Source: Methylomicrobium sp.
GTDB taxonomy: Bacteria; Pseudomonadota; Gammaproteobacteria; Methylococcales; Methylomonadaceae
Reading direction: 5' to 3'
NCBI GenBank assembly: GCA_018333785.1
Contig: JAGXSU010000108.1
Span: forward strand, 79,301 to 143,300
Length of the DNA: 64,000 nt
Below, piece after piece: positions 1 through 49,349 of the stretch. Positions within the stretch are counted from its first letter, which is position 1. The number at the start of each line of letters is the position of its first letter. Both the position numbers and the translations under genes were made by a program. The notes beneath the pieces were generated by a model. That model was not told the DNA's origin and ran no database searches. It saw only the letters and a list, made by a program, of their open reading frames with translations.

Positions 1-1207
1 ATCCAAGCGACTTACAAATATTTTTCTTTCTTGTGTCATTTTCCTTTCGTTTTCTAAGCCCTTCTTCTCCACCCCAATGATTGACAATCTCGAAATGCTG
101 AACTCCCTGATATTCAATTCCAGATTTTAATTCAGGTATCCAGACATCAATCTCCAATCCTTCAAGTTCTTTACCTCGATAATGATGAATTACATCTAAA
201 GATGGAAGAAGTACCTGAACCATCTTGTAAAGCATTGTTTCTGTTATCCATTTTTCTCCAATTTTAGGGTACTCAAACGCTTCTCTAACTTCATTCTCTA
301 TTTCGCGATAGTCTTTGTCTTGAGAAAAAATGAATTTACCAAACTTTTTCAATGAAAAAAGGTGATGATATGGCATATATTTGATAAGGAAAGCCGATGG
401 AGAAGGGGAACATGGATATTCTTGATTAGGAATATTTCCCGTGCATAAATGACATATACCATTTTTAACTTCCAAATCATTTTTAACGGTCAAACCATTT
501 TTAATATCTAAATACTCTTCAAAACAGGAGCACGTCAGAATTATGCCACATCTTCGACAAATAAATGTAACAGGAAAAAATGCACTACCAATCCTAATTT
601 CATCTAAATCTTCCTCTGGATGTACACAGTCAATCAAAAAGTCTTTAAAAATCGGCAAAATTAATTCAGAATTAAAATGAATACCAAGTAAACATACATA
701 TGACTTTTTCTTTTTTGAAGAAATATCAAAAGTATATCCAGTTATATTCAAGCCTTCTTCTAGGTCTAAACTTATTTCATAATTTTTGTTTTTAACAAAA
801 ACCAGAATATTTCCTAAAGAAAAATTAATGATTTCTTTAACTGCTAATAACGATGGAAAATTACAAATTTCCCCATCTGTATAATTAATTGCTTTGAGAC
901 TGTAATCATCATGACCGTACCGAGCGCAAAATTTTGCATCAATTTCAACGCTAATATCTTTTTTATAACCTGTATGTTTTACAATATTTTTTTCTTCAAA
1001 AAAATTTTTGTTTTTTAAAAAATTTATAGAACCTAAGTCGGTATGAGAATCTGCACATAAACCATACTCTTCAAATATTACTTCAAGTTCTTGCTTGAAA
1101 GCTGATCTAATATTATGAAAAAAATTCCCCCTTTGCTCCAAAGCAATACGAAATGATTTGCTTACAATGCTATTTGGAATTTTAATTCGGTAACTTATTG
1201 TATCCAT
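1..1207 (-). CDS. Putative nuclease: Zn-ribbon-like CxxC/CxC/CxxC cluster followed by a PD-(D/E)XK/Vsr-like C-terminal domain (truncated by window edge)
   Basis: Manual reverse-strand translation is open from ATG at 1207 to base 1 (~402 codons, no stop): MDTISYRIKIPNSIVSKSF...FICRRCGIILTCSC...GICHLCTGN...KWITETMLYKMVQVLLPSLDV..GKELEGLEIDVWIPELKSGIEYQGVQHFEIVNHWGGEEGLRKRKENDTRKKNICKSLG. Not in the ORF track because it has no stop in the window. Confidence 0.75.
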   Translation of the reverse strand, partial: MDTISYRIKIPNSIVSKSFRIALEQRGNFFHNIRSAFKQELEVIFEEYGLCADSHTDLGSINFLKNKNFFEEKNIVKHTGYKKDISVEIDAKFCARYGHDDYSLKAINYTDGEICNFPSLLAVKEIINFSLGNILVFVKNKNYEISLDLEEGLNITGYTFDISSKKKKSYVCLLGIHFNSELILPIFKDFLIDCVHPEEDLDEIRIGSAFFPVTFICRRCGIILTCSCFEEYLDIKNGLTVKNDLEVKNGICHLCTGNIPNQEYPCSPSPSAFLIKYMPYHHLFSLKKFGKFIFSQDKDYREIENEVREAFEYPKIGEKWITETMLYKMVQVLLPSLDVIHHYRGKELEGLEIDVWIPELKSGIEYQGVQHFEIVNHWGGEEGLRKRKENDTRKKNICKSLG

Positions 1208-1232
1208 AAAGACCACATGCTTAACGCCGCAA

Positions 1233-2207
1233 TCACCGGCTAGTCCGGTGCATTGCCTTGTTAAGGCTGTCCTCGATAGTTTCTTTAAAGTCAGGGTCAA
1301 ACTGTTTTAGATAGCTCAATGTGACTTTCATAACATCCTCTAAAGATGGTGGATTATCCACTATAGGATCAATAGTTCTATTGCTGGAATCTCTAAAATT
1401 AATAATTGCATCGATAAACATATAACTTGGTATAAAGCGGCAAATATTATCTCCGGCAGTTACCGGAATTCCTGCCAGTTTTACTTGATTGGCCTTTGGC
1501 TGAACGTTATATACAGCACCACCACTCATACCGTTAACATTTTTGTGACAAGTTTCCCCTTCGGTTATATCAAAAGAAATATAGCTATCATTTTCGTCGA
1601 TTATGTATCTTCCAGGAATAGTGTGCCTTTGGATTTTTGTCGTATGGGTGATATTTTCACTTTGCGGGGTAAAATCAAATGAATTTCTTTCAAATGGGTA
1701 GCCTGTAACTAAAAGAATTTGACCATTGAAGAATTCTTCTTCCTTAAGAGCGCTGTCCTTACTTGATATCTCTATGAAGTGATCTGGTATATGGAATTTT
1801 TGTGGGTGAAATACTTCAACAAGACATATATCAGAGCTGTCAATACCATTGATCTCTTCAGAGATTAGCTCTCCGACATTCCATACCCTTTTCGGAAAAA
1901 GAAAATCATATTGCGACGACCATTCAGCTCGGTTTTTTGCAGGAACCCAAAATGGAGACTCATTTTGAAGTTCACCCTGGATATTGTTTTCGATGACGTG
2001 CCTAGCCGTAAGCACAAAGAATTCATCGTTAATTTTCAATAGCACTCCGCTACCGGCTCCATACATCTGGTCGACATGGAAGTAACCTCTAGATTCGATG
2101 CTTTCGTACAAGTGGTTGAAAAAGAACCTGCGAGTCGACTTTGCAACATTTGAAGTCGCAGCTTTATCAATATATTTTTTGAGCTTCTTTTGAGTCAATT
2201 TGCTCAT
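1233..2207 (-). CDS. Trypsin-like serine protease domain protein
   Basis: ORF track 1233..2225; the likely start is the internal MSKLTQKK. Triad-like motifs: FVLTARHV (His), SSDICLVEV (Asp), NGMSGGAVYNV (Ser). Confidence 0.75.
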   Translation of the reverse strand: MSKLTQKKLKKYIDKAATSNVAKSTRRFFFNHLYESIESRGYFHVDQMYGAGSGVLLKINDEFFVLTARHVIENNIQGELQNESPFWVPAKNRAEWSSQYDFLFPKRVWNVGELISEEINGIDSSDICLVEVFHPQKFHIPDHFIEISSKDSALKEEEFFNGQILLVTGYPFERNSFDFTPQSENITHTTKIQRHTIPGRYIIDENDSYISFDITEGETCHKNVNGMSGGAVYNVQPKANQVKLAGIPVTAGDNICRFIPSYMFIDAIINFRDSSNRTIDPIVDNPPSLEDVMKVTLSYLKQFDPDFKETIEDSLNKAMHRTSR

Positions 2208-2470
2208 GATTAGGTGCTTTAACAAGTAATTAAATGGTTTCTGTATATCATCCCTGATCGCCGTACTCTAGGCAATAAGCTCTGTTACCTTAGCAGGACA
2301 TTAACTGTAGATCACGATAGACAGTTTCTTTTTAGCGCGGTAATGGTCGGCCATGAAGAGGTAAACAGCCAACCATCGCCCGCTAGTATGAGGTGAGGAA
2401 CGAACCGCATCAATCGCGAACGATGCGGTTCACTGTGTTTACCGGATGCAATAAATTAGAGGCTCGTTTT

Positions 2471-48772: not shown

Positions 48773-49065
48773 ATAACTTTTCCATCAGAATCGCGTTGCT
48801 CCACAGGCTGGGTTCGATTAAAGCCCTTTATAGACGCATGGTCTGTGTGAACAACAGAACCAACTTTATTTCCATTTGAATCTAAAATTGAGTATGTCCA
48901 TATATCGGTTTCAGCCATTGTTCCCTTTGAACGATGACTTTCTTGTTTCAGAGTTTCTCCGGAATTTAGTTTGAGTTTTTCTTTCAATTTTTTCTGCGAT
49001 ATTTTTCTAACGCCGCGCTCACCGACTCGTCCAGTAGTGCAGCGCTTGGTTATGCGACGATTCAA
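48760..49065 (-). CDS. Hypothetical protein
   Basis: 101-aa ORF adjacent to higA, stop within a REP-like repeat. The N-terminus resembles readthrough of the intergenic sequence, so the true start is uncertain. Confidence 0.4.
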
Positions 49066-49349
49066 GCAGCCACAAGCTTTTTAACGTGTAATTCATTGCG
49101 GTGCTGCTCAGCATGCCATAGATCGTATTGGGTCTGTTGCATAAGCCAGCTCTCTGATGACGTATTAAATGCTATGGACAATCGAATTGCCATTTCAGGA
49201 CTGATGCCTGCACGGCCATTGAGCACAGCACTCAGGGTTTTCCGGCTGACGCCAAGGGCCTTAGAAGCCTCAGTAACAGAAAGGTTAAGCGGATCAAGGC
49301 AAAGCTCTTTGATAATTTCGCCAGGATGCGGCGGATTGTGCATTAACAT
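49062..49349 (-). CDS. higA: HigA-family antitoxin (XRE HTH)
   Basis: [61 protein letters not shown]. Confidence 0.95.

Follow-up and report, generated by a model that had tools for sequence, protein, structure and literature searches.

At the left edge of the DNA analysed here, a gene for a trypsin-like serine protease is followed at a short distance, on the same strand, by a gene for a nuclease-like protein, and the question raised by this locus is whether the two genes work together as one defence system. The window, that is, the whole stretch of 64,000 nt that was analysed, corresponds to C108:79301-143300 in a genome of 5.0 Mb. A first-pass annotation had proposed that the protease and the nuclease may form a two-gene defence or conflict module, with nuclease activity under the control of the protease. 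The analysis leads to another answer: they are probably separately captured mobile genes and not one two-part defence machine. The protease gene is, with good confidence, a gene cassette carrying its own attC at the 3′ end, with the nuclease gene outside that cassette and a shared mechanism unlikely.

Both genes were found on the minus strand, between pqqE and an Hsp70-like gene, and the gap between them is indeed 25 nt. As the first-pass annotation had stated, they are rich in AT: the GC content is 28–39% in the protease/nuclease region vs ~47–52% for the pqq genes, and the region is taken to be foreign DNA. The interval between pqqE and the protease gene also holds a multi-copy REP-like repeat (2370–2440, plus strand), with a similar copy on the other flank (L002:13690-13760). 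No match was obtained in an Rfam search of the 18-kb locus or in a DNA search of E. coli genomes. In genome G001 (L111), the interval between pqqE and the Hsp70-like gene contains a BrnT toxin gene, a BRCT-domain gene and unnamed genes, without the protease and the nuclease; with this unrelated content, the interval is a variable site.

First of all, the protease gene (1233–2207, minus strand) starts with ATG at 2207 and encodes 324 aa; the TTG further upstream, which opens the listed ORF of 330 aa, is a less likely start. The triad motifs reported earlier are all present, as TARHV (H70), DICLVEV (D126) and GMSGGAV (S228), and these three residues, together with an N-terminal RR motif, are invariant among homologues at 28–39% identity. 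The Pfam family Trypsin_2 just missed its cut-off (24.7 bits, E 4.4e-5; cut-off 27.6), and the predicted structure is of low confidence (pLDDT 45). Homologues are few: a search covering plasmids, phages, viral contigs and samples of 369–399 genomes gave four loci outside the genus, all unfused, and a scan of genome contigs with the protease profile, based on narrow patterns, returned only the congener. On a Pseudomonas juntendi plasmid (L018:7998-8969), a homologue of 35% identity lies between hsdS and hsdR in a type I restriction operon, where it is possibly an accessory of restriction. On an Acinetobacter junii plasmid, the homologue is located downstream of hsdR-like and SprT-like genes; in a viral contig (L022), Vsr-, C5 methyltransferase- and McrBC-like genes, named from ORF reading, lie upstream of it; and in a prophage-type contig (L021), it follows umuDC-like genes. 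The protease thus appears, judging from its sequence relatives, to belong to a small, unfused, defence-linked family of trypsin-like proteases. Since these relatives adjoin type I restriction genes and sit in prophage cargo, it is plausible from the neighbours in the four loci that the protease by itself serves in defence, and most likely it would act as a self-contained defence-type protease of trypsin fold that cleaves a host or phage protein upon infection. That is to say, the defence part of the earlier proposal is plausible for the protease, while the two-gene module is not supported.

The nuclease gene (1–1207, minus strand) was open at the window edge; leftward extension gave the full gene, which ends 85 nt beyond the left edge (L002:13915) and encodes 430 aa. 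The three Cys pairs seen at first reading are CRRC, CSC and CHLC; CxC and CxxC are kept in relatives, and C226, C228, C252 and C255 are invariant in the closer family. In an alignment of nine divergent relatives, the invariant residues are W320, E323, D354, E365, Q370, H371, G379, G380, D391 and K394, and among them E323, D354, H371 and D391 make up the EDxHD / PD-(D/E)XK catalytic set, so the earlier assignment to PD-(D/E)XK-like nucleases can be refined to the EDxHD type. It has been reported that the active sites of EDxHD and PD-(D/E)XK homing enzymes are similar (PMC3943268). Nothing in Pfam or NCBIfam scored above cut-off, and the PHROG matches comprise two unknown families at E 1e-35 and endonuclease families at 2e-18 and 3e-12. 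The divergent relatives are located on plasmids of Vibrio, Arcobacter, Acinetobacter, Paracoccus, Haladaptatus and rhizobia and in an SPbeta-like phage. In the structure model, only the C-terminal domain is confident (high pLDDT), with the helix-strands-helix-strand order of restriction-like nucleases; a fold search of the PDB gave no match at E <0.001, the weak ones including mitoribosomal proteins, R2 and TnsA. Judged by its conserved residues, the protein would most likely cut DNA as a metal-dependent endonuclease of the EDxHD/PD-(D/E)XK class, and part of it would bind zinc.

The relationship between the two genes is to be read from their boundary. On the minus strand, the last protease codons and the intergenic gap read GCCTTAACAAGGCAATGCACCGGACTAGCCGGTGATTGCGGCGTTAAGC. 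This sequence, which had gone unnoticed in the first-pass annotation, folds on the bottom strand into a single hairpin, in which one base is bulged and a spacer stays unpaired (DNA z −5.1), and its 46-nt core lies at 1220–1265 (minus strand), overlapping the last protease codons. The R′ box GTTAAGC matches GTTRRRY, and the R″ box CCTTAAC differs from RYYYAAC by one base. Two extrahelical bases are typical of an attC bottom strand, and one is predicted here. When the 64 kb were scanned for attC-like structures, the boundary site was by far the best match and was accompanied by one weak match, while shuffled sequences averaged 0.4. The integrase IntI recombines attC between G and TTRRRY, and the recombination point is predicted to lie between 1225 (G) and 1224 (T). 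With this point, the protease and its attC would form one cassette, and the nuclease gene would start 17 nt into the following DNA, outside the protease cassette. The 25-nt gap that hinted at an operon is largely the 3′ part of the site plus a short leader. At its other end, the cassette is predicted to begin with G/TTAAAG and a 15-nt leader before the ATG (2208–2223, minus strand), and the DNA shared with a congeneric genome, a Methylicorpusculum MAG, begins ~10 nt further upstream. The site measures 46–48 nt, below the range of 57–141 bp given in the published definition of attC (PMC3053210); this range may be too narrow, because the same-type sites in an array of another genome (G112) measure 46–60 nt.

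A two-gene module, in which the protease would detect infection and free the activity of the nuclease by cutting it, is favoured by the common strand and the 25-nt spacing, by the persistence of the pair in two congeners, by the defence settings of the protease relatives and by the published precedent of trypsin-activated pro-nucleases (PMC12799240). It is nevertheless unlikely, since the attC-like boundary separates the two genes and the published pairs have metallo-β-lactamase (MBL) nucleases and fused proteases. In addition, the pairing did not recur in the loci compared. The protease-nuclease pair was found in two Methylicorpusculum genomes only, the present one and the MAG, and in none of the other loci compared are the homologues neighbours. 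This comes close to the outcome that the first-pass annotation had named as refuting its proposal, namely two genes that never adjoin each other elsewhere. Around ~90 nuclease-domain loci (80 of them on viral contigs, the others on plasmids and phages), the ORFs of the retrieved flanks gave neither a match to the protease profile nor a trypsin motif pair; the neighbouring genes of the plasmid nuclease homologues include no protease by Pfam; and the four protease loci outside the genus gave no match to the nuclease profile. In the MAG, the protease copy is 99% identical and intact, whereas the nuclease is interrupted after about codon 199 (L017:6490-6627) by DNA resembling an IS66-type element, at which the contig ends. 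This copy, with the listing of the MAG under the same genus, assigns the window to Methylicorpusculum, a genus of methanotrophs. Over the pair the two genomes are 99–100% identical, whereas the flanking pqqE and Hsp70-like gene are 92–93% identical, which indicates a recent transfer. On the reading as captured genes, the protease gene would have been taken up as a cassette with its own attC-like site at the 3′ end, and the nuclease would most likely be the cassette that came next in an array since broken up, its own attC having been lost, a resident gene being less likely; no attC was found after the nuclease gene. Both genes may be transcribed together, but it is unlikely that they act through a common mechanism. 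It is likewise improbable that integron shuffling joined a stand-alone defence protease with an EDxHD zinc nuclease and that the two then became coupled into a protease-gated system. If this were true, nuclease-protease immunity would have arisen independently in the cassette-assembled pair, with a nuclease of a new class.

Another reading is that each gene is resident or was transferred on its own, the hairpin being an unrelated palindrome such as a terminator or a MITE. The site is shorter than a textbook attC and its exact pattern gives one copy per genome, both of which would suit such a palindrome, but the covariation, the position at ORF ends, the G112 array and the bulged base, which is kept in related sites, make this account very improbable. 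Across three sites (the boundary site and two plasmid sites), four base pairs are changed on both sides, that is, compensatorily, and 96% of cells pair over the three sites vs 22–43% when the partner strand is slid. BLAST showed the element, at 86–89% identity, on plasmids of Stutzerimonas stutzeri and Methylomonas. In Stutzerimonas stutzeri, the gene that comes next is also followed by an attC-like site; on the plasmid of Methylomonas sp. LL1 (L124:3125-6044), the element immediately follows a two-gene SMEK-domain locus and lies close to a type I restriction M gene. A covariance model of the element, R1, located sites in 19 of 61 related genomes, and 19 of the 25 sites, a set that includes the three used to build the model, lie at ORF 3′ ends vs ~24% of random positions. 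In G112 (L145:2957-6038), three sites stand in tandem on the same strand with unnamed ORFs, and two of these sites adjoin the 3′ end of an ORF directly. Moreover, the tails encoded by reading through the site recur: the protease ends in NKAMHRTSR, the second protein of a BrnTA-like pair closed by a site in G036 in NKALQRTSR, and an ORF of G030 in NKALHRTSR. Features of this kind are hallmarks of integron attC sites. REP or MITE elements were also considered as the source of the hairpin and rejected, as the exact pattern has one copy each in the present genome and the MAG and the model matches lie at gene ends.

The window holds a second attC-like site (49006–49054, minus strand; R1 36.8 bits) directly after a higA-like gene (49062–49349, minus strand), and the higB-like toxin gene upstream of that gene looks frameshifted.

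As for the enzyme, two genes of the present genome score above the TIGR02249 cut-off as integron integrases. Both are interrupted (C61:13248-17126, L121; C23:1616-3008, L122), one of them being split by the insertion of a transposase and a recombinase; in G112 (two) and G011, the integron integrase genes contain no internal stops. A strict attC-like scan of the two contigs that carry intI gave no clear array in the stretches examined. Methylococcales belong to the taxa for which an attC type has been recognised, and integrons are cited as carriers of antiphage systems (PMC12444791). The sequence, fold, covariation and relatives of the site support the cassette reading, which is likely to hold, and recombination at the site is predicted; the interval between pqqE and the Hsp70-like gene of Methylicorpusculum can, with similar assurance, be said to hold a small piece of integron-derived cargo. 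That the protease is a domain left from a Lamassu, AVAST or Hachiman system whose core genes were lost is the least credible account, for the LmuA profile match (E 5.7e-13) which suggests it is confined to the trypsin domain, the flanks are the Hsp70-like and pqq genes without LmuB, Avs or HamB, and the four protease relatives are likewise unfused.

At this locus, tight gene spacing had been read as a functional operon, and the gap is one half of what is likely a recombination site. Looking for attC hairpins in such gaps is an inexpensive safeguard against mistaking two neighbouring genes for a defence system. The results also point to a short attC type in methanotrophs, where cassettes (protease, HigBA, BrnTA) lie scattered, and to a small family of trypsin-like proteases that are unfused and linked to defence.

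Among known systems, the nearest in appearance are the nuclease-protease pairs described in Hachiman, AVAST, Lamassu and DRT systems and in canu (Tuck et al. 2025, PMC12799240), in which an MBL pro-nuclease, typically upstream, accompanies a trypsin domain fused to HamA, Avs or LmuA. Here, too, a nuclease gene adjoins a trypsin-like protease gene; however, the nuclease has no MBL match and lies downstream of the protease, the protease is unfused, with 324 aa and a trypsin domain only, an attC-like site separates the genes, and the pairing did not recur among the loci compared. Membership in these pairs was rejected, there being no MBL nuclease and no fused protease. Membership in Lamassu, AVAST or Hachiman was rejected as well, as the trypsin domain is the sole match, without core genes and without an adjoining SMC-like gene; the protease shares the trypsin domain of Lamassu LmuA (PADLOC PDLC03855) but lacks the LmuA C-terminal part and an LmuB neighbour. 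The nuclease resembles the EDxHD homing endonucleases (type I-Bth0305I) and related PD-(D/E)XK enzymes in the E...D...H...D pattern, set in a putative restriction-enzyme-like domain, and it matches phage homing endonuclease families by sequence, whereas it has another N-terminal part with a conserved Cys4 site and is a free-standing gene with relatives on plasmids and phages. Finally, compared with the integron gene cassette, the site here is very short and isolated, and the integrase genes of the genome are all interrupted, but the locus has in common with such cassettes a single ORF followed by a folded attC-like site, a short leader, arrays in related genomes, and TA and defence-type genes as cargo.
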